The notes below the pieces were generated by a model that saw only the letters and a program-made list of their open reading frames with translations, ran no database searches and was not told where the DNA came from. Made by a program: the position numbers and the translations under genes. From Polytrichum commune (lineage: Eukaryota > Streptophyta > Polytrichopsida > Polytrichales > Polytrichaceae), in contig OX485808.1 of the NCBI GenBank assembly GCA_950295325.1, positions 25,442,527 to 25,506,526 of the forward strand: a DNA stretch of 64,000 bases. The letters are read 5' to 3'. Within the stretch, counting starts at the first letter, position 1; the number at the start of each line of letters is the position of its first letter. Below, one piece after another: positions 10,215-47,723 of the stretch.

Positions 10215-11226
10215 GGTTATGGGCCCACTTTGCTTTGGAGGTAGGAGATTGACTTAAGAAGAGCTTGGAGACGGCCGGTTCTTATGGGAGGTGCTTTAAA
10301 GGTGTTCTAGGGCTTGTGGCGGAGTCTTGAAGTTTTTGAAGCGCCTTAGAGCATTCTTGGAAGAGTGGACCAGCGTGAGGGACCTTAGAGGAGTGTTTCT
10401 ACATTCTAGATCTCTTTAGGTATATGTCCACACCATTTCAAATGCTTAGGTGTACATCAGATCCGTATTTGAGTTGTTGAAGGCCATTTGAATGCCAAGG
10501 GGCTTAGATTAGCTCTTTGATGTGTTTTGAAGTTTTGTGCACCTAACCAGATCATTTAGGTGCTAACTTGAGTGTTTTGGTTCATTTCTACTTTAGATTG
10601 ACGGCATTCAAGTGCCAAAGGGCTTAGATTAGCTCTTTGATGTGTTTTGGAGATATTTTGCATGTCACTTGAGAGGAAAGGTGCTGACTTGAGTGTTTGG
10701 TTCATTTCTACACTAGATTGAGGAGATTCAAGTGCCAAAGGGCTTAGATTAGCTCTTTGATGTGTTTTGGAGATTTTTGCATGTCACTTGAGAGGAAAGG
10801 TGCTGAATTGAGTGTTTGGTTAATTTCTACACTAGATTGAGGAGATTCAAGTGCCAAAGGGCTTAGATTAGCTCTTTGATGTGTTTTGGAGATATTTTGC
10901 ATGTAACTTGAGAAGAAAGGTGCTGACTTGAGAGATTTCAAACTTCTATGCTTAGTTTGAGGTGTTTTGGATTCCAAGAGGCTTATTTGTACCCTCTTGA
11001 TGGTTGTTAAGTTATTATGCATCTAGCTTGAGACGAAAGGTTATGACTATAATTTTTGAATGATTTTGCACCAACTTAAAGGGTTGAGGTGCTGACTTGA
11101 ATGTGGGAGAACATTGGGTGATTAATTAAGTCCATTATACTTTGTTTAGGCAATTTCTAACTTCCTTGAGGGTTTCTAAGCCCTTGTAGTACATTGAGTG
11201 AGTGGGAGCTTGCATTCGGTTTGGAA
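10215..11226 (+). other. Copia primer site and leader with tandem repeats
   Basis: After the primer-binding site comes the untranslated leader. Between about 10500 and 11040 it carries roughly 120-bp tandem units (GGGCTTAGATTAGCTCTTTG recurs at 10500, 10620, 10740 and 10859). The gag ATG follows at 11227. Confidence 0.8.
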
Positions 11227-11979
11227 ATGGCTTCTAGTGAAAACGATGGACTTATATCGGTTGATAAGTTGGGTGGCGAGAACTTCAACCTCTATAAGTT
11301 CAAATTGGAGATGGCCATGTCCACTAAAGATCTTTGGGAGATCGTGGATGGTTCGGAGTTGCCACCGCCTTCTATGACGAGCGACGAAATGAAGAAGGCA
11401 TACGAGCAACGATGGAAGAAAGCCTTCGCCATCATTGCCACGAGCTTGGTGGACAAGGAGTTGGCACACATCAAAGGATGCAAGGGACCCGCGGAAGCGT
11501 GGAAGACCTTGTGCAACATCCACGAAACCAAAAGCTTGTCGAACATCTTGTTCAAAAGACGCAAGTTCTTCACCATCAAGATGGACGAGAGCGACGACAT
11601 CCTCACACACATCAACAAGATAAAATCTCTTGCGGACCAACTCACATGCTTGGAGGTGCCTATGAAGGACGAGGACGTGGTCATGACCTTGCTCGATAGC
11701 CTACCACCCTCGTTCGAGCATTTGATCACTGCATTGGAGATGCGCTCGATGAAGGAGCTCATTTTGGACTTCATCACTGCACGTCTCATGCACGAGGTAT
11801 CCAAAAGGAAGGAGAAGGAGCCTCAAGGCGACGATGCGGCCATGTTGTCACGCCAACATCGAACGTTCGACAACAACGAGAGTTGCGGTGATACCCCGAG
11901 GTGCTACAATTGTGGTAAGTTGGGCCACATTGCTCGTAATTGTCGAATGAAACGCAAGGTGAATGCCAAAATGACAAGG
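11227..11979 (+). pseudogene. Copia gag, 5' part, split by chromovirus
   Basis: Starts MASSENDGLISVDK and contains the Copia-type gag (UBN2-like) region and the zinc knuckle CYNCGKLGHIARNC near 11900. The frame is open up to the insertion. The downstream half resumes at 17965. Five host bases, CAAGG, are duplicated on both sides of the insertion (11975-11979 and 17960-17964). Confidence 0.88.
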
Positions 11980-12356
11980 TGTTCGGGACACAAGAATAAG
12001 CAACGAAAGATTAAGTACTAGAAAACAAGAACCACTAGAAAACTTGGATTAACAAGAAGAGTACACGATCAATACCCAGAGAGGTGGATTAGAGTCCTAA
12101 GGAGTGCGTTGTCGAGACTAAAGAACTCTTCAGCCTCGACTCTTATATATACTTCTAGAGTCAACTCGTAAGCTTCTAGAGAAGGTTCTACCAACTTCCA
12201 TTGGAGGTTTCTAGAAGGATCTAGAAGCTTGTTTCTAGAATGTTCTAGAATGTTCTAGAAAGTTCTAGAAAGTTCATTCTAGAATGTTCTAAGGACTTGT
12301 TTCTAGAACTTTCTAGAAACTTGTCCTTAGAAGGTTCCAAAACTATATCCCTAACA
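11980..12356 (-). repeat. Chromovirus 3' LTR
   Basis: 377 bp with TG...CA ends as read on the plus strand. Compared with the 5' LTR it has lost a few bases at its R/U5 end and gained a short block near 12216-12231. It contains TATATATA near 12145 and the TTCTAGAA array. Confidence 0.88.
12233..12320. promoter_or_regulatory. Heat-shock-element array, 3' LTR copy
   Basis: Nine perfectly phased alternating TTC and GAA units at 5-bp spacing occupy 12233-12275 (for example TTCTAGAATGTTCTAGAA). Further three- and four-unit groups follow up to about 12320. The arrangement matches the array in the 5' LTR. Confidence 0.75.
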
Positions 12357-12371
12357 TTACCCCCTCCTTTA
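12357..12371 (-). other. Chromovirus polypurine tract
   Basis: On the minus strand AAAGGAGGGGGTAA directly precedes the 3' LTR start TGTTAGGG. This is the expected place and composition for the plus-strand DNA primer. Confidence 0.75.
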
Positions 12372-12571
12372 GCTTCGAGGTCTCCGAGAAGCAATGTTGC
12401 TGGCAGTCAATACAAACGCAGAAATACGAAGATCTGCCGCATAACGTCTGCTATGAACTCCAATTGTTGTTCACGAGACAAGTGATTCATCGGTCCTTGC
12501 AGCCAACGGTAGTGGCCCACGCCTTCCACTTCTGACCAAACATGAACTTCCGTGTCTTCGTTGTAAAATTG

Positions 12572-12760
12572 TCATGCAAACACACCTTCTGGCAGATTAT
12601 TGAAAGCAGGCTCGGCTTCAAATACAATCACCAGCGAACGATTACTTGGTATCCTCCGTCTTCGTCGTTGTGCAGGCGGTTTTTCATCTCGGGGCCGCCT
12701 TCGTGAGTTCGTCGGTTGAGATGCCATGACTGGCGCGTTGTCTATCTCTTGAGAATCCAT
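12572..12760 (-). other. Short ORF between integrase and 3' LTR
   Basis: 62 codons rich in Arg and Pro (RRRRRIPSNR-type stretch), in the 3' region of the chromovirus after the chromodomain. I do not recognise it. It may be a chance frame or a remnant of an additional 3' reading frame. Confidence 0.25.
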
Positions 12761-12897
12761 AGAAGAAGACCATACTATGACTATTGGAAAAGTTCTACTC
12801 TTATATCAAATTGAAAACTATCTACACAGTGACTGTGAATTTTAATAATATTCTCCCTCCTTTTTATGTTCTTGGATAGATAAGCGTCAGAGAGAGG

Positions 12898-14184
12898 CTA
12901 TCGTCGAGACGGCTTAGGTTTATGAGGATATCGTTGATGAAATTCATGTACTTTTTTTGACGCATTGGCGAGATTTTCGGCCGATTCCCATGTTCGTTCA
13001 TTAATATCATAGCCGCTCCAATGCACAAAGTACTCTAATTTACCCCATCTTTGCCGTGAATCCAGTATCTTATCCACCTCGTATTCCTCGTGGTTCTCGA
13101 TTTCGATACTAGGTGGCGGACTTTGCACTCTTCCTGGAAAAGACGACTCTCGATAAGGTTCCAATAAAGAGACATGAAAAACTGGATGTACCTTCATAGC
13201 GGCCGGTAATTCCAGACGGTAAGCCACGGGATTGATTTGCTTCTGGACGACAAATGGTCCCAATCTTCGGTAGTCCAACTTATCGCACGGTCGCTTCGTT
13301 TTGATATTTCGTCGGAGAAGCCACACTTTATCTCCAATCTTGAAAGCAAGTGCCTCCTTCCGAAGTTTATCTGCAGATGCCTTGTAAGCCTCTTGGGCGG
13401 ATTGTAGTTGAAGTTTCAACGTCGTCTGAAGCTCGGATAGTTGCTTTACAAATTCTTCTGCTGCCGGATTGCCATTCGTTGACGAACTCAATAAGTCGAG
13501 GTTCGGGTGGTATCCATAGTTGGAGAAGAATGGCGTGCTTTGAGTTGAAGCATGGAGAGTGTTGTTGTAAGCAAACTCGGCAAGTGGTAGATATGTAGTC
13601 CAATCGTCTTGCTGGTAGTTGATGCTACATCGTAAATATTGCTCTAAGACTTGATTCACCCACTCCGATTGTCCGTCAGTTTGAGGATGAAAAGCCGAAG
13701 AAAGGTTAATGTCCACCTTTAGTTTTTCAAAGAGGAATCTCCAAAACTTGGATACAAACTGAGTTCCTCGATCTGAAATGATATCATCTGGTAGGCCATG
13801 ATAACGATACACGTTATCAAGAAAGAGTCTTGCTGTGTCTTCACTTGATGCCGTCTGCTTACAAGGGACAAAATGCGCCATCTTTGTAAGTCGATCGACC
13901 ACAACGAAAATGCTGTCAAATGAATTCGATGGCGGTAGGTCTGTAATAAAGTTCATAGAAACCGAAGACTACGGACGGCGTGGAACAGGTAATGGTTGCA
14001 GAAGTCCATATGGACGATGCCGAGGGGTCTTGGATCTTGAGCAAATGTCACAAGAGAGGACAAATTCTTTGACATCCTTCCATATTTGGGGCCACCAAAA
14101 ATCTCGGGAAATAAGCTCTAAGGTCTTATTGAACCCAAAATGTCCCGCAGCTGGAAAATCGTGATGAGATTGAAGAACCCGAAG
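12898..14184 (-). pseudogene. Chromovirus integrase with C-terminal chromodomain
   Basis: The part 14184-13957 reads as the HHCC zinc-finger region (HHDFPAAGHFG, then CDICSR) after the in-frame TGA at 14185-14187. A TAG at 13969-13971 replaces the Trp expected before SSVSMNF. The open part 12898-13956 (352 codons) holds the core with Asp21, Asp62 and Glu98 (D,D35E spacing intact), the GPF/Y-type region, and a chromodomain at about residues 288-345 (EYEVDKILDSR ... YFVHWSGY ... TWES). Chromodomains of this type are thought to steer integration to marked chromatin. Two nonsense codons inactivate translation. Confidence 0.9.
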
Positions 14185-14187
14185 TCA

Positions 14188-15888
14188 CGCATGTCCTTGT
14201 GGAATGTACAACCGCTCCTCAAAATACAGAAGATCACCCTCTATCTTGAACTTGTCATCATTGCTACGTTGCTTGATGTCACGAGCTACAAAATCTTCAA
14301 TGGTCGCAGCACGTACTTGGTTGAGGAAATCGGCGTCGATAGGTACGACAACACTGAAAATCCTAAATTGCTCTGGTTTCAACAATGTCGTACACTGCTG
14401 ATCAAATGCTGCTTCTCCAGCCTTTGCCGCAAGATACGATCTTCTTGATAATGCATCGGACAGTCCTTGTTGTTTTCCAGGCCTATAGTTGATAACAAAA
14501 TCAAATCGAGATAGTGACATATTCCATCGAGCTTGACGACGATTCAAAACTCGTGCCGACATGAAGTATTCCAGATTCTTGTGATCCGTGTATACGGTCA
14601 CTGGGTGTGCAGCGCCTTCGAGAAAGTGACGCCACTCTTGGAAGAAATCCACTATAGCAAGGAGTTTCTTATCGTGGATCTCATAGTTGATTTCAGCAGC
14701 AGAGAACTTGCGAGAATAAAAAGCAATCGGGTGGAGCTTCCCGTCAATGCCAATTTGCAAAAGCACGGCTTTTAAAGCAAAGTCTGAAGCATCGGTTTCC
14801 AAATAGAAAGCCTTTGCAAAGTTGGGATGTACCAAGATTGGAGCCGTAGTGAATGCCGTCTTGAGATCTTGAAATGCTCGTTCGGCTTCAGGTCCCCATT
14901 TCAGCTTCTCCTTGCATGTTAACCGAGTGAGTGGAGCAGCGACTTGAGAATATTTCTTGATGAAGATCCGATAAAAAATAGCAAAGCCAAGAAAACATTG
15001 TACAAATCTAACCGTCTTCGGAACTTTCCAAGACACGATTGCTTCTACTTTCTTGGGGTCCATCTTCAAGCCTTTAGTAGTCGCAACGAATCCCAAAAAT
15101 TTCATCTCTGTTTGGTGAAACAAACACTTCTCCAACTTGGCGTAGAGTCCTCGTTCGCGTAGTTTCTTAAGAATCAACCGTACGTGTTTCTCATGTTCTT
15201 CTTCATTCTTGGAAAATACCAGAATGTCATCTAGATAGATGACAACAAAATCGTCGAGGTACTCCCGAAAGATGTCATTCATCATATGTTGAAAAGCCGC
15301 CGGAGCATTGGTAAGACCAAAAGGCATCACATTATATTCAAAATGGCCATACCTTGTACGGAAAGCCGTCTTCCATTCGTCTCCTTCTTTGATTCGTACG
15401 AGGTTGTAGGCTCCCCTTAAATCAATCTTTGTAAAGATTTTTGCACGTCCAAGTTGGTCTAGGAGGCCAGAAATCAAAGGTAAGGGATAGCGGTTTTTCT
15501 TGGTCACCTTGTTGAGTCCTCGGTAGTCCACGCACATCCGTAGTGAACCGTCCTTCTTTTTGACAAATAAGATTGGTGCTCCAGCTGGCGATTTTGAATG
15601 ACGAATGAAATTCTTGGCTAGGTTCTCGTCAATGTACTTTCGCAATTCTGTCAACTCTGTCTGTGATAAGTTGTAAATTGGGCCAAAAGGTAGTTGTGCT
15701 CCGTCTTCCAACTCTATGGCGCAATCGTATGGTCGGTGCTCTGGCAGCATGTCGGCGTTCGTCTTTTGAAATACGTCTTGAAAATCCTTGTACTGCCTTG
15801 GTATGCTTGTTGTTGAGGTCGTCTCTCTTTTAGTCGGAGTTGCGTAAATGACAAACGGTGTTCCCTCCTTAGACGATCTTATGAACAC
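14188..15888 (-). pseudogene. Chromovirus reverse transcriptase and RNase H
   Basis: 567 open codons. RT motifs are in order: KKDGSLRMCVDYRGLNK (residues 111-127), FTKIDLRGAYN (152-162), MPFGLTNAPAAFQ (188-200) and the active site YLDD (218-221). The RNase H domain starts near ETDASDFAL (365-373) and includes YTDHKNLEYF. The motif FLGFAIFYRIFIK departs from the usual FLGFANFYRRFIK, a sign of decay. The frame ends at the premature TGA 14185-14187 that separates it from integrase. Confidence 0.9.
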
Positions 15889-16328
15889 TTTTGCTCCAAT
15901 AAATAAGGGTTTTTAAATTTGTGGTCTCCTAGCGAGTTTAGTTTTTTCAGGGAATGTGATTCTACTAACCAGGAAAGACCAAGAATAACAGGGCTTGATG
16001 GAGTTCTAATGATATTAAAGACAACATAACTATTATGGTCGTTAAACGTCACTTCTATAGGTTCTGATTCATGGGTCACACTGCCAGATAATAAAGGTCG
16101 TCCATCTATCACCTCTACGTAAATAGGCTTAGACTTTTGTACTAGACGAATCTTGTGGCGTTTAGCAAATTCTTCATCTAAAAAACAAGTAGATGCCCCC
16201 GAATCTAATAAAGCTAAAGTTTTTTGTTTCTGAGGACCGAGAGACAAAGAAATTGTAAGACAACGAATAGGTTGGGCAGAGAAATAAGAACCTGATTTTT
16301 GTCGTGGCTTTGGGTCGTCCAGCCGCAT
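15879..16328 (-). pseudogene. Chromovirus aspartic protease
   Basis: Contains the retropepsin signature LALLDSGASTCFL near residues 38-50, followed by the typical beta-strand pattern and a VILGLSWL-like motif. It overlaps the RT frame by a few bases in another frame, so the pol polyprotein is broken here by a frameshift. Confidence 0.85.
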
Positions 16329-16411
16329 GGTTCCTACTGTGGTTGGGCATCGTCGTTTTCCGGGATCATCGCGCTTCTAGTCTTAACAGTGCGTCGGTTC
16401 TGCTTCTTGGG

Positions 16412-17351
16412 GCAGTTTATAACCTTGTGACCTTCTCCTCCGCAATATAAACATAATCCTTCTTCCATTCATCGTTTCTTTTCTTCTGGAGTAATAGTTC
16501 TGACACGTGTCGCATCAATTTGCATGTCTTTTGCTTCCAAATGTGAATCCAAGCTCCTTGCCGTCATAGTTGCATTGTAACGAGTCGCTTGGTGTCTTGG
16601 ACGTTGGTCTTGGCGACGTTGGAATAGACGGTTGTCACACTTTACAGCTTGGCTAATGGCTTCGTTGAGTGTTTGCGGATCTGGAAGAGTTAACAGCAAG
16701 TCCTTCACATCATCCCTCAAACCCCAATAAAACTGACTCACCAATACCTCTTCACCCCAATTGATGTCACTCGCCAATTGTCTGAAATCTGATGCATAGA
16801 CTGATGCAGAGCGTGTCCCTAGCCCATCGGACCTTGTGATGTTCGCCAAATGCTTATGTAAATGCCTCCAAGAATGTCTCAAAGTTGCTCAAAATTAACG
16901 ATCGTTTCTCAAACAAGGGAGCAAACCACGACAGAGCTTGCCCTGTAAGCAATGTTCCAACAAGCCCAACACGCGCCTCTTCCGTCGTATAGCGTTCGGG
17001 CTGCAAAACTGTTACTAATCTGATTTGATTTAAGAAACCTCGAAACTTGGAACGCGTTTCATCGAACTTGTCAGGAAGGCTAACTCGAGGTTCTTTCCGT
17101 TGTAGCATTACTTGGTTTTGTTGAGTCGAAGGTAAAGATGCTTCATCTAGTGTAGAATTTTGGGCATGATATACTCCAGAAGGCGCTATGACAGATGCTC
17201 CTTCGTTGTGAAGCCCTGCCATGATTCCTTCAATCTCTGCAGTTCTATGTAACAACGAAGCAAGAGCATTGATGATGCCATCTAATTTGGAATCTAAACT
17301 TTCAGCCATCCTAAAGTCTTGATCTTTGACTATCCCACGAAAGGAGAACAA
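16412..17351 (-). pseudogene. Chromovirus gag, frameshifted
   Basis: 17351-16854 encodes the gag N-terminal part (coiled start MAESLDSKLDGIINALASLL, then the SLPDKFDETRSKFRGFLNQI capsid block and GQALSWFAPL). The same protein continues in a second frame at 16882-16469 (QFYWGLRDDVKDLLL, AISQAVKCDNRLFQRR), so a frameshift lies near 16870. A CCHC zinc knuckle CLYCGGEGHKVINC is readable at 16412-16453. Confidence 0.85.
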
Positions 17352-17569
17352 CGGTTTGACAAAAGAACAATATTGGTTTAGAGGAGGGTATTCCGCAACC
17401 TCTAAAACGCCTTAAGACTCCGAGAAAAGGGGTAAATCCACGCTCGTCAAGAAGAAATAAGACTCCAATAGTGAGGTGGAAGAAGTATCAGTTAGAGGAG
17501 GGTAGTCCGCAACCTCTAAAGCACTAGCACACTTTCAAAAGAGGGGTAATCCGCTCTCTAAGAAATGAT

Positions 17570-17583
17570 TAGCTCTGATACCG
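17570..17583 (-). other. Chromovirus primer-binding site (initiator tRNA-Met)
   Basis: Minus strand CGGTATCAGAGC, one base from the canonical TGGTATCAGAGC, lies immediately after the 5' LTR. It pairs with the 3' end of initiator tRNA-Met, the conventional mode of priming. Confidence 0.8.
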
Positions 17584-17770
17584 GTGAAAATGCAGTCTCG
17601 ACAAACTATCAGAGACACAAGAATGAGCAACGAAATATTAAGTACTAGAAAACAAGAACCACTAGAAAACTTGGATTAACAAGAAGAGTACACGATCAAC
17701 ACCCAGAGAGGTGGATTAGAGTCCTAAGGAGTGCGTTGTCGAGACTGAAGAACTCTTCAGCCTCGACTCT

Positions 17771-17778
17771 TATATATA
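17771..17778 (-). promoter_or_regulatory. TATA box of the chromovirus LTR
   Basis: TATATATA followed by AG on the minus strand, about 58 bp downstream of the nearest heat-shock-element unit. Position and composition fit an RNA polymerase II core promoter in U3. Confidence 0.7.
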
Positions 17779-17835
17779 CTTCTAGAGTTAACTCGTAAGC
17801 TTCTAGAGAAGGTTCTACCAACTTCCATTGGAGGT

Positions 17836-17921
17836 TTCTAGAATGTTCTAGAAAGTTCTAGAAAATTCTAGAAAGTTCATTCTAGAATGTTCTAAGGACT
17901 TGTTTCTAGAACTTTCTAGAA
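17836..17921. promoter_or_regulatory. Heat-shock-element array, 5' LTR
   Basis: Nine consecutive alternating TTC/GAA units at exact 5-bp phase span 17836-17878. A three-unit group at 17880-17892 and a four-unit group at 17904-17921 follow. Three alternating units are the minimum for heat-shock-factor binding; here there are sixteen. The site is palindromic, so strand does not matter. The array lies upstream of the TATA box in U3. Confidence 0.78.
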
Positions 17922-17964
17922 ACTTGTCCTTAGAAGGTTCCAAAACTATGTCCCTAACACAAGG

Positions 17965-26017: not shown

Positions 26018-27188
26018 TTTGCAACTCAAATGCAAGCTCCCACTCACTTAATGTACCACGAGGGCTAAAAAACCCTCGAAAATTTTAGAATTTGATTTTA
26101 AACTTTGGAATTAATTCAAGGTTCTCACACACTCAAGTCAGCACCTTTCCACTCCAAAGCTAAGCCAAATGACTACATAACCATCAAAAAGCCAAAACTA
26201 AGCCTTTTGGAACTCAAAACACCTCAAAGTTAGTTTTGAATGGATGGATCTCTCAAGTCAGCACCTTTCCACTCCAAAACTAAGCCAAATAACTACATAA
26301 CCATCAAAAAACCACAACTAAGCTTTTTGGAACTCAAAACACCTCAAAGTTAGTCTTGAATGGATGGATCTCTCAAGTCAGCACCTTTCCACTCCAAAAC
26401 TAAGCCAAATAACTACATAACCATCAAAAAGCCAAAACTAAGCCTTTTGGAACTCAAAACACCTCAAAGTTAGTTTTGAATGGATGGATCTCTCAAGTCA
26501 GCACCTTTCCACTCCAAAACTAAGCCAAATAACTACATAACCATCAAAAAGCCAAAACTAAGCCTTTTGGAACTCAAAACACCTCAAAGTTAATTTTGAA
26601 TGGATGGATCTCTCAAGTCAGCACCTTTCCACTCCAAAACTAAGCCAAATAACTACATAACCATCAAAAAGCCACAACTAAGCCTTTTGGAACTCAAAAC
26701 ACCTCAAAGTTAGCATAGAATGGATGGATCTCTCAAGTCAGCACCTTTCCACTCCAAAACTAAGCTTAATAACTACATAACCATCAAAAAGCCACACCTA
26801 AGCCTTTTGGAACTCAAAACACCTCAAAGTAAGCATAGAATGGATGGATCTCTCAAGTCAGCACCTTTCCACTCCAAAACTAAGCTTAATAACTACATAA
26901 CCATCAAAAAGCCACACCTAAGCCTTTTGGAACTCAAAACACCTCAAACCCTCAAAATGCGAATCGATCTCACATAAACATTCAAGATACAATGAACCTC
27001 AACCTAACGTGTCCTCCACGCTGGTCCAAGTGTCCAAGAATGCTCCAAGGCGCTCCAAAAGTGGTCCAAAACTCCAAAACTCCACCAAAAGCTTGAAACA
27101 CCTCCAAATCGCCTCCGATCAGATCCGGCTCTCTCCTACCTCTTCCTAAGTTGATCTCTAAGCTCTAAAGCAAAGTGGGCCCATAACC
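26018..27188 (-). other. Element A leader with 120-bp tandem repeats
   Basis: From about 26130 to 26960 the same 120-bp unit (core TCAAGTCAGCACCTTTCCAC on the plus strand) recurs about seven times with few differences. The section near the primer site is unique. Plus-strand reading of the repeat gives an open frame with a 40-residue period (MDGSLKSAPFHSKT...), but this is antisense to the element. Confidence 0.9.
27175..27188 (-). other. Element A primer-binding site (half tRNA-Met)
   Basis: Plus strand GTGGGCCCATAACC, i.e. GGTTATGGGCCCAC on the element strand, directly adjoins the 5' LTR. The plus-strand form equals the anticodon arm of plant initiator tRNA-Met. Confidence 0.75.
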
Positions 27189-27380: not shown

Positions 27381-27752
27381 GAAAGGTGCTGACTTGAGAG
27401 ATCCATCCATTCTATGCTTACTTTGAGGTGTTTTGAGTTCCAAAAGGCTTAGTTGTGGCTTTTTGATGGTTATATAGTTATTTGGCTTAGTTTTGGAGTG
27501 GAAAGGTGCTGACTTGAGAGATCCATCCATTCTATGCTTACTTTGAGGTGTTTTGAGTTCCAAAAGGCTTAGTTGTGGTTTTTTGATGGTTATATAGTTA
27601 TTTGGCTTAGCTTTGGAGTGGAAAGGTGCTGACTTGAGTGTGTGAGAACCTTGAATTAATTCCAAAGTTTAAAATCATTTTCTAAACTTCCTTGAGGGTT
27701 TCTAAGCCCTTGTACTACATTGAGTGAGTGGGAGCTTGCATTCGCTTTGAAA
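27381..27752 (+). other. Truncated Copia leader of unit B1
   Basis: About two and a half 120-bp leader repeats in plus orientation, starting abruptly after the LTR of element A, then the conserved pre-gag stretch. There is no primer site or LTR of its own. Confidence 0.82.
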
Positions 27753-29996: not shown

Positions 29997-30498
29997 GGTT
30001 ATGGGCCCACTTTGCTTTAGAGCTTAGAGATCAACTTAGGAAGAGGTAGGAGAGAGCCGGATCTGATCGGAGGCGATTTGGAGGTGTTTCAAGCTTTTGG
30101 TGGAGTTTTGGAGTTTTGGACCACTTTTGGAGCGCCTTGGAGCATTCTTGGACACTTGGACCAGCGTGGAGGACACGTTAGGTTGAGGTTCATTGTATCT
30201 TGAATGTTTATGTGAGATCGATTCGCATTTTGAGGGTTTGAGGTGTTTTGAATTCCAAAAGGCTTAGGTGTGGCTTTTTGACGGTTATGTAGTTATTAAG
30301 CTTAGTTTTGGAGTGGAAAGGTGCTGACTTGAGAGATCCATCCATTCTATGCTAACTTTGAGGTATTTTGAGTTCCAAAAGGCTTAGGTGTGGCTTTTTG
30401 ATGGTTATGTAGTTATTAAGCTTAGTTTTGGAGTGGAAAGGTGCTGACTTGAGAGATCCATCCATTCAAGACTAACTTTGAGGTGTTTTGAGTTCCAA
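29997..30498 (+). other. Leader-only unit B2
   Basis: Primer site, unique leader and about two 120-bp repeats; then it is interrupted by another LTR at 30499. No coding region belongs to this unit. Confidence 0.85.
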
Positions 30499-30690: not shown

Positions 30691-31741
30691 GGTTATGGGC
30701 CCACTTTGCTTTAGAGCTTAGAGATCAACTTAGGAAGAGGTAGGAGAGAGCCGGATCTGATCGGAGGCGATTTGGAGGTGTTTCAAGCTTTTGGTGGAGT
30801 TTTGGAGTTTTGGACCACTTTTGGAGCGCCTTGGAGCATTCTTGGACATTTGGACCAGCGTGGAGGACACGTTAGGTTGAGGTTCATTGTATCTTGAATG
30901 TTTATGTGAGATCGATTCGCATTTTGAGGGTTTGAGGTGTTTTGAGTTCCAAAAGGCTTTGTTGTGGCTTTTTGACGGTTATGTAGTTATTAAGCTTAGT
31001 TTTGGAGTGGAAAGGTGCTGACTTGAGAGATCCATCCATTCTATGCTAACTTTGAGGTGTTTTGAGTTCCAAAAGGCTTAGTTGTGGCTTTTTGATGGTT
31101 ATGTAGTTATTTGGCTTAGTTTTGGAGTGGAAAGGTGCTGACTTGAGAGATCCATCCATTCTATGCTTACTTTGAGGTGTTTTGAGTTCCAAAAGGCTTA
31201 GGTGTGGCTTTTTGATGGTTATGTAGTTATTAAGCTTAGTTTTGGAGTGGAAAGGTGCTGACTTGAGAGATCCATCCATTCTATGCTAACTTTGAGGTGT
31301 TTTGAGTTCCAAAAGGCTTAGGTGTGGCTTTTTGATGGTTATGTAGTTATTACGCTTAGTTTTGGAGTGGAAAGGTGCTGACTTGAGAGATCCATCCATT
31401 CTATGCTAACTTTGAGGTGTTTTGAGTTCCAAAAGGCTTAGTTGTGGCTTTTTGATGGTTATGTAGTTATTAAGCTTAGTTTTGGAGTGGAAAGGTGCTG
31501 ACTTGAGAGATCCATCCATTCTATGCTAACTTTGAGGTGTTTTGAGTTCCAAAAGGCTTAGTTTTGGCTTTTTGATGGTTATGTAGTCATTTGGCTTAGC
31601 TTTGGAGTGGAAAGGTGCTGACTTGAGTGTGTGAGAACCTTGAATTAATTCCAAAGTTTAAAATCAAATTCTAAAATTTTCGCGGGTTTTTTAGCCCTCG
31701 TGGTACATTAAGTGAGTGGGAGCTTGCATTTGAGTTGCAAA
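30691..31741 (+). other. Unit B3 primer site and leader repeats
   Basis: After the primer site and the unique section, about six 120-bp repeats run from roughly 30930 to 31630, then the AT-rich pre-gag stretch. Confidence 0.87.
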
Positions 31742-35819: not shown

Positions 35820-37132
35820 GGTTATGGGCCCACTTTGCTTTAGAGGTAGGAGATCGACTTAGGAAGAGCTTGGAGAAGGCCGGATCTGATTGGAGGTGCT
35901 TTAGAGGTGTTCTAGGCCTTGTGGCGGAGTCTTGAAGCTTTTAGAGCGCCTTAGAGCATTCTTGGAGGAGTGGACCAGCGTGAGGGACCTTAGAGGAGTG
36001 TTTCTACATTCTAGATCTCTTTAGGTATATGTCCATACCATTTCGAATGCTTAAGTGTACATCAGATCCGTATTTGAGTTGTTGAAGGCCATTTGAGTGC
36101 CAAAGGGCTTAGAATTAGCTCTTTGATATGTTTTGGAGTTTTGTGCATCTAACCGGATCATTTAGGTGCTGACTTGAGTGTTTAGTTCATTTCTACACTA
36201 GATAGAGGGCATTCAAGCGCCAAAGGGCTTAGATAAGCTCTTTGATGTGTTTTGAAATTTTGTGCATCTAACCAAATCATTTAGGTGCTGACTTGAGTGT
36301 TTAGTTCATTTCTACACTAGATTGAGGACATTCAAGTGCCAAAGGGCTTAGATTAGCTCTTTGATGTGTTTTGGAGATATTTTGCATCCAACTTGAGAGG
36401 AAAGGTGCTGACTTGACATATTGCTTCATTTCTACACTAGATTGAGGACATTCAAGTGCCAAAGGGCTTAGATTAGCTCTTTGATGTGTTTTGGAGATAT
36501 TTTGGATCTAACTTGAGAGGAAAGGTGCTGACTTGACATATTGGTTCATTTCTACACTAAATTGAGGACAATCAAGTGCCAAAGGGCTTAGATTAGCTCT
36601 TTGATGTGTTTTGGAGATATTTTGCATCTAACCTGAGAGGAAAGGTGCTGACTTGACATATTGCTTCATTTCTACACTAGATTGAGGACAATCAAGTGCC
36701 AAAAGGCTTAGATTAGCTCTTTGATGTGTTTTGGAGATATTTTGCATCTAACTTGAGAGGAAAGGTGCTGACTTGACATATTGCTTCATTTCTACACTAG
36801 ATTGAGGACATTCAAGTGCCAAAGGGCTTAGATTAGCTCTTTGATGTGTTTTGGAGATATTTTGCATCTAATTTGAGAGGAAAGGTGCTGACTTGACATA
36901 TTGGTTCATTTCTACACTAGATTGAGCACATTCAAGTGCCAAAGGGCTTAGATTAGCTCTTTGATGTGTTTTGAAGTTATTGTGCATCTAACTTGAGAGG
37001 AAAGGTGCTGACTTGACTTTAGGAGAACATTGGGTGATAAATCAACTTTGTTTTGGCCATTTCTAACTTCCTTGAGGGTTTCTAAGCCCTTGTACTACAT
37101 TGAGTGAGTGGGAGCTTGCATTCGGTTTGAAA
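35820..37132 (+). other. Element C leader with tandem repeats
   Basis: The longest leader in the window. From about 36090 to 37010, units with the core GGGCTTAGATTAGCTCTTTG recur; the first units are shorter and the later ones are exactly 120 bp. The unit sequence (ACTTGACATATTG variant) differs from that of elements A and E, so leader repeats have diverged between subfamilies. Confidence 0.87.
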
Positions 37133-46684: not shown

Positions 46685-47723
46685 TTTGCTTTAGAGCTTA
46701 GAGATCAGCTTAGGAGGAGGTAGGAGAGAGTCGGATCTGATCGGAGGCGATTTGAAGGTGTTTCAAGCTTTTGGTGGAGTTTTGGAGTTTTGGAGCATTT
46801 TTGGAGCGCCTTGGAGCATTCTTGGACACTTGGACCAGCGTGGAGGATACCTTAGGTTGAGGTTCATTGTATCTTGAGTGTTTATGTGAGATCGATTCGC
46901 ATTTTGAGGGTTTGAGGTGATTAGAGTTCCAAAAGGCTTTGTTGTGGCTTTTTGATGGTTATGTAGTTATTAAGCTTAGTTTTGGAGTGGAAAGGTGCTG
47001 ACTTGAGAGATCCATCCATTCTATGCTTACTTTGAGGTGTTTTGAGTTCCAAAAGGCTTAGTTGTGGCTTTTTGATGGTTATATAGTTATTAAGCTTAGT
47101 TTTGGAGTGGAAAGGTGCTGACTTGAGAGATCCATCCATTCTATGCTAACTTTGAGGTGTTTTGAGTTCCAAAAGGCTTAGGTGTGGCTTTTTTGATGGT
47201 TATGTAGTTATTAAGCTTAGTTTTGGAGTGGAAAGGTGCTGACTTAAGAGATCCATCCATTCTATGCTAACTTTGAGGTGTTTTGAGTTCCAAAAGGCTT
47301 AGGTGTGGCTTTTTTGATGGTTATGTAGTTATTAAGCTTAGTTTTGGAGTGGAAAGGTGCTGACTTGAGAGATCCATCCATTCTATGCTTACTTTGAGGT
47401 GTTTTGAGTTCCAAAAGGCTTAGTTGTGGCCTTTTGATGGTTATATAGTTATTTGGCTTAGTTTTGGAGTGGAAAGGTGCTGACTTGAGAGATCCATCCA
47501 TTCTATGCTTACTTTGAGGTGTTTTGAGTTCCAAAAGGCTTAGTTGTGGTTTTTTGATGGTTATATAGTTATTTGGCTTAGCTTTGGAGTGGAAAGGTGC
47601 TGACTTGAGTGTGTAAGAACCTTGAATTAATTCCAAAGTTTAAAATCATTTTCTAAACTTCCTTGAGGTTTTCTAAGCCCTTGTACTACATTGAGTGAGT
47701 GGGAGCTTGCATTCGCTTTGAAA
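46685..47723 (+). other. Element E leader with 120-bp tandem repeats
   Basis: A unique section of about 235 bp is followed by about six repeats from 46920 to 47620, each with GGAAAGGTGCTGACTTGAGA. Two units carry an extra T (TTTTTTGATGG). The repeats are non-coding in the sense direction. A pre-gag AT-rich section precedes the ATG. Confidence 0.9.

Follow-up and report, generated by a model that had tools for sequence, protein, structure and literature searches.

Phased heat-shock-element arrays in the LTRs of a Tcn1-type chromovirus family of a probable moss suggest a heat-responsive promoter

Introduction

Could heat have switched on a chromovirus family of a probable moss? The question is raised by one long terminal repeat (LTR) retrotransposon in a 64-kb stretch of DNA (the window), whose LTRs hold GAA and TTC units in regular phase, as in heat-shock elements (HSEs). 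The first-pass annotation of this DNA proposed that the family is, or was, heat-inducible. In this study, we examined the array in the element, in its family and in the host genome.

Results

Anatomy and classification of the element

The element and its parts are listed below.

11980-17959, minus strand: Tcn1-type chromovirus LTR retrotransposon (paired LTRs, target-site duplication, domains)
11975-11979: left copy of the target-site duplication (TSD), CAAGG
17960-17964: right copy of the TSD, CAAGG
17607-17959, minus strand: 5' LTR, 353 bp
11980-12356, minus strand: 3' LTR, 377 bp
16854-17411, minus strand: part of gag, with DUF4939 and a weak Ty3 capsid match below its cut-off
15879-16376, minus strand: aspartic protease ORF (ORFs and Pfam)
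14185-15912, minus strand: reverse transcriptase (RT) and RNase H ORF (ORFs and Pfam)
12898-13968, minus strand: ORF with part of the integrase core, an SH3-like domain and a chromodomain

The Pfam domains stood in Ty3/gypsy order: protease, RT, RNase H, integrase core, Tf2-1-like SH3 and Chromo. The coding region was broken into ORFs of differing frames; RT was open in the window copy and the other frames were broken, gag towards 16469-16888 (minus strand, ORF list). The Pfam matches to RT, RNase H, integrase and Chromo support the chromovirus assignment made in the first-pass annotation. The chromodomain matched PF00385 with an E-value of 4.2e-15 and shared Y, W and Y with CDYL in the alignment, positions that we take to be the aromatic cage residues of the chromodomain. 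Of 7967 RT hits, the best 120 were inspected: those with a named source came from frogs, fish, a lizard, fungi and two other protists, none from a seed plant, and the closest of the 120 had 84-89% identity. By sequence, the domains, the chromodomain and the predicted self-priming described below fit the Tcn1 clade of moss and club-moss chromoviruses. Membership in the ONSEN (COPIA78) family itself was ruled out, as the domains are those of Ty3/gypsy and not of Copia.

The window copy is surrounded by another retrotransposon. Copia domains were found by Pfam on both sides, a plus-strand gag with a zinc knuckle on the left and Pol_BBD with GAG-pre-integrase on the right, which indicates that the chromovirus is nested inside a plus-strand Copia element. 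A search of IMG/VR for relatives of the element confirmed none. The window also holds seven tandem arrays of similar-looking 120-bp units, some reversed, at 10493-10932, 26132-26948, 27381-27638, 30237-30498, 30931-31627, 36096-37017 and 46911-47609.

The HSE array in the two LTRs

The units of both LTRs and the TATA box are as follows.

17836-17878, minus strand: nine-unit perfect GAA/TTC array at 5-bp spacing, 5' LTR
17880-17892, minus strand: three-unit HSE block, 5' LTR
17904-17921, minus strand: four-unit HSE block, 5' LTR
17933-17940, minus strand: two-unit GAACCTTC close to the LTR start, 5' LTR
17808-17815: further unit pair, 5' LTR
17771-17778, minus strand: TATA box TATATATA, 5' LTR
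12233-12275, minus strand: nine-unit HSE array, 3' LTR
12277-12289, minus strand: three-unit HSE block, 3' LTR
12301-12318, minus strand: four-unit HSE block, 3' LTR

Our recount confirmed what had been noted at first sight, namely the positions of the units, their 5-bp spacing and the repetition of the array in the 3' LTR. The TATA box was likewise found downstream of the array on the element strand, with a gap of 57 bp between the array end and TATATATA in the 5' LTR. Four runs of at least four units were present in the window, and every one lay within these two LTRs. In 200 first-order Markov simulations of the window, 0.03 runs of at least four units and none of at least five were expected by chance per 64 kb. 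When the LTR's own composition was simulated 20,000 times, a four-unit run appeared in 1 simulation for the 5' LTR and in 11 for the 3' LTR, and none was longer.

Core promoter and predicted self-priming

Complementarity between the LTR and the segment just past it gives a prediction of the transcription start that is independent of the array.

17746, minus strand: predicted transcription start, an A located 32 bp from the first T of the TATA box (deduced from self-primer complementarity)
17736-17747, minus strand: LTR partner of the predicted self-primer (RNA 5' end)
17593-17604, minus strand: predicted self-priming site, located 2 nt past the 5' LTR and able to pair with the RNA 5' end

A complement of 9-13 nt was found in all seven 5' LTRs of the family, pairing a segment 2 nt past the LTR (5 nt in L024) with LTR sequence that lies 30-32 bp downstream of the TATA start. 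In a control of 500 shuffles, the mean was about 6 and the maximum 10-11. Five of the seven 5' LTRs exceeded all shuffles, L012 tied with them (11 against a maximum of 11) and L024 fell below (9 against 10). In the sister locus L037, both sides had changed alike relative to the window element and were still complementary at 11 of 11 positions. No perfect complement was found in the other 6 of the 7 sister loci tested, which may be due to 3' or cut LTRs. An iMet-tRNA-like GGTATCAGAGC was also present 23-24 nt past the LTR in 5/7 cases, at 24 nt in the window element. Priming by the element's own RNA has been predicted for most members of the Tcn1 clade (PMC6317226), so that self-priming here is a feature of membership and not a discovery. 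With self-priming, transcription would begin at 17746, which would place the nine-unit array at about -132 to -90.

The array across the family and the genome

A search of the 408-Mb genome with the LTR gave at least 38 matches, 20 near-full-length and 18 partial. The near-full LTRs fell into six element pairs and eight singles, and the single LTR L023 was followed by the primer site and then gag. All 20 carried a perfect run of at least four units, and ten carried at least seven; the longest perfect run was nine units in four LTRs, seven in six, five in five and four in five. At least four adjacent nGAAn units in the LTR, which is the ONSEN-type criterion, were thus found in 20/20. The first-pass annotation had named an array missing from most LTRs of the family as evidence against its reading; the genome search found the opposite, and the array is common to the family rather than a one-off expansion. 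Array length differed among copies mostly by 10-bp steps, also between both LTRs of one element, which indicates that units are gained and lost.

Genome-wide, perfect six-unit sites were found 15 times at 11 loci, and the family accounted for 14 of them at 10 loci; a reversed-pattern control gave 0. Five-unit hits numbered 60, with 43 in the family (15 loci) and 17 at 12 other loci, and the control gave 5. Outside the family, a single run of at least six units was found, which had seven (L052:1496-1528; G000:C7:8286161-8286193) and lay about 12 bp ahead of the first ATG in an ORF for an LRR protein. Three identical five-unit HSE sites, perhaps a tandem repeat, were present within 1.2 kb at G000:C2:37796914-37798106.

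The family looks small and decayed, judging from its sequences. Partners in all six LTR pairs differed by a K2P distance of 0.034-0.067. The five-bp TSD was perfect in three of the six pairs and four of the eight singles, and one base off in two pairs and two singles; it was not seen in the remaining pair, and it was judged in six of the eight singles. With 76 of 3606 RT candidates scored, seven copies had 90-100% identity (one over 211 residues only) and the next relatives had 63-73%. Stops lay within the matched RT stretch in 5/7 copies. The first-pass annotation suggested that insertions may confer a heat response on their neighbours. Next to five of the eight single LTRs, none of six ORFs gave a Pfam match (0/6), and of two ORFs beside a sixth single LTR, one was the family's own gag and one lacked a Pfam match. 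The same genome also contains numerous gypsy-type copies whose RT identity is 43-48%, and in a good part of these the frames are open to 1539-1551 aa; they apparently form one or more larger, younger families unlike the one studied here.

Array-less sister LTRs

Among the 18 partial matches, five were reverse self-matches of the family arrays, and ten were cut as loci L029-L038. L036, a self-match, was left out, so nine loci were read, and L034, which had no clear TATA box, was dropped to leave eight scored. Seven of these eight sister LTRs had no run of three units. L030, L031, L033 and L037 had a similar TATA box and start region and no run longer than two units. The diverged sister L032 (G000:C6:20829606-20829783 and upstream) had its own runs of four, three and three units in different surroundings. 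When the L037 LTR was used as query, nine matches of at least 229 bases were obtained, none of which (0/9) lay at a five-unit site.

Close to the LTR start, some array-less sister LTRs carried a sequence of two units resembling GAACCTTC, and L031 and L037 had GGAACCTTCTAG in common there. The two-unit GAACCTTC or GGAACCTTCTAG is a possible proto-element of the array. The change between the family and its sisters may have gone in either direction, as array gain here or loss there.

Heat genes of the host

Five hits to the heat-shock factor (HSF) DNA-binding domain were found in the host genome, and HSP sequences were present. With a small heat-shock protein of the host as query, the named hits of highest identity were those of Physcomitrium (68%), Funaria (66%) and Ceratodon (65%), and others reached 95%; some longer seed-plant proteins at 50-52% gave better E-values. 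The host is thus probably a moss. We scored the best four-unit window within 700 bp upstream of 26 HSP20 matches: three reached 11-12/12, five 10/12 and 18 at most 9. Over the whole 1.2-1.5 kb upstream, a perfect run of at least three units was present in 1/26, with four units. These results indicate that the LTR arrays exceed those HSP20 upstream regions. By coordinate comparison, none of the HSP70, HSP90, ClpB and HSP20 matches listed lay at the 12 non-family five-unit loci, which suggests that host heat genes do not use such long perfect runs.

Discussion

We propose that this Tcn1-type chromovirus family has a genuine HSE cluster in its LTR promoter, which is bound by HSF and drives transcription in heat, a reading to which we assign a probability of about 60%. 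Once activated by heat, trimers of HSF would occupy the nine, three and four phased GAA/TTC units that lie 58-143 bp upstream of the TATA box. HSF-driven transcription would start at the A 32 bp after the TATA box start, and the transcript would then prime its own reverse transcription by pairing of its 5' end with the site directly past the 5' LTR. This reading is supported by the position of the array upstream of a TATA box whose start is independently predicted by the self-primer, by the HSF domains of the host genome and by the four-unit windows upstream of some HSP20 matches. In Brassicaceae Copia elements, four adjacent nGAAn units correlate with up to thousand-fold heat induction (PMC5059998), and by the published Copia rule of at least four such units the LTR should respond to HSF. 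HSF binding, heat-dependent transcription and their promotion of past transposition are what we infer from sequence; the arrays suggest that heat once turned the family on. Comparison within the family lends strength to the heat inducibility first proposed, which we consider plausible. The absence of long perfect runs from the listed host heat genes counts against it, as does the repression by heat shock of P. patens RLG1, a chromodomain Gypsy element (PMC7466625). Since the family looks decayed, any effect today would consist of transcripts that heat induces from single LTRs or defective copies.

The array might instead be a palindromic 10-bp repeat, TTCTAGAAnn, that grew by slippage or unequal exchange in an LTR and was copied by transposition, its HSE likeness being incidental or unused. 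The 10-bp steps in array length, even between the LTRs of one element, are as expected from such growth, and the units evolve like the remaining LTR. On a fixed grid, unit columns varied by 0.072 and spacers by 0.096 (p 0.18); G/C bases of the units varied like other non-CpG G/C in the LTR (0.122 and 0.120), and their A/T bases varied more than A/T outside the array (0.047 against 0.024). A first test for selection on the units gave p 0.024 and was rejected, as the units in it had been chosen by conservation and the effect vanished on the fixed grid. Since copies are expected to decay after insertion, the fixed-grid result neither supports nor excludes past function. Repeat growth does not readily explain phased blocks of two, three and four units with other sequence between them, the runs that L032 has in its own surroundings, the position upstream of a core promoter or the retention of runs of at least four units in 20/20 copies, and we consider it unlikely.

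An action of the array as RNA, transcribed in the 3' LTR and forming hairpins that affect stability, packaging or small-RNA production, seems highly improbable. The U3 segment 17808-17940 does fold at -51.5 kcal/mol (z -7.35, with 0/200 shuffles as good), but any phased GAA/TTC array is palindromic, so that hairpins follow from the array itself. Moreover, the GAA-nn-TTC linker columns vary strongly (0.196, partly from misaligned repeats), and the outer stem is absent from most family copies, its partner GTCCTTAGAA being exact in 4/20 and one base off in a fifth. The units could also serve HSFs or related factors for another cue, such as drought, ABA or development, with heat not the main one. 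The response of P. patens RLG2 to both ABA and heat (PMC7466625) speaks for this, but in Copia elements the strong heat type is the one with at least four adjacent nGAAn units (PMC5059998), and we regard another main cue as improbable.

Beyond the heat promoter itself, we put forward only tentatively, at somewhat less than even odds, that a Tcn1-type moss chromovirus acquired, independently of ONSEN, a heat promoter of the same kind but of greater strength. A proto-heat-element would have multiplied after the split from the array-less sisters and given the longest perfect arrays found in the host genome; heat would have triggered the spread, and Copia elements and chromoviruses would have converged on one host switch. 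It has been reported that the cluster of ONSEN derives from a duplicated proto-HRE (PMC5059998).

The first-pass annotation knew of no such case in chromoviruses. In the titles and abstract openings of the literature searched, with most subscription papers outside it, we likewise found no HSE array in a chromovirus LTR; the surprise is lessened by RLG2 (PMC7466625) and the putative HSEs of TCN3 and TCN12 (PMC12810828), and RLG1 is heat-repressed. PMC9780303 covers heat responses of Ty3/Gypsy elements in pine, Cryptomeria and bamboo, with 0 occurrences of chromovir-, HSE or HSF in its available text, and PHRE1/2 are covered in PMC8656106. The element resembles the Tcn1 clade (REXdb) in its aromatic-cage chromodomain, predicted self-priming, apparently Tf1/Sushi-like proteins and probable host, as plant Tcn1 elements have been reported only from moss and club-moss (PMC6317226). 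It differs in its array, since none is described for the clade in the available text of PMC6317226 and PMC2864245; the latter has 0 words starting with "heat", and it reports that neither tRNA-priming nor self-priming was found in its Selaginella element.

The P. patens elements RLG1 and RLG2 are moss Gypsy elements, RLG1 with a chromodomain, and RLG2 is strongly induced by heat and ABA. They differ in that the available text reports no HSE analysis and gives no clade for RLG2, and in the repression of RLG1 (PMC7466625). In Cryptococcus, the LTR retrotransposons TCN3 (Ty3/gypsy) and TCN12 have putative HSEs in their LTRs and are mobile only or almost only at 37 C; they carry two and one, respectively, in a fungal host, unlike the long phased array here (PMC12810828, PMC12139950). 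Copies with four to nine units, together with array-less sisters that have a similar core promoter, make the dose effect of HSEs on a transposon directly measurable. If the array works, two LTR-element superfamilies have converged on HSF as a switch, in plants far from Arabidopsis. In its LTR, the element resembles the heat-responsive Brassicaceae Copia elements ONSEN/COPIA78, TERESTRA, COPIA37 and ROMANIAT5, which have clustered nGAAn heat elements, with at least four adjacent units in ONSEN and TERESTRA (PMC5059998). The element described here, known from its sequence, differs from them as a Ty3/gypsy chromovirus of a moss-like host with a longer array (9 + 3 + 4).
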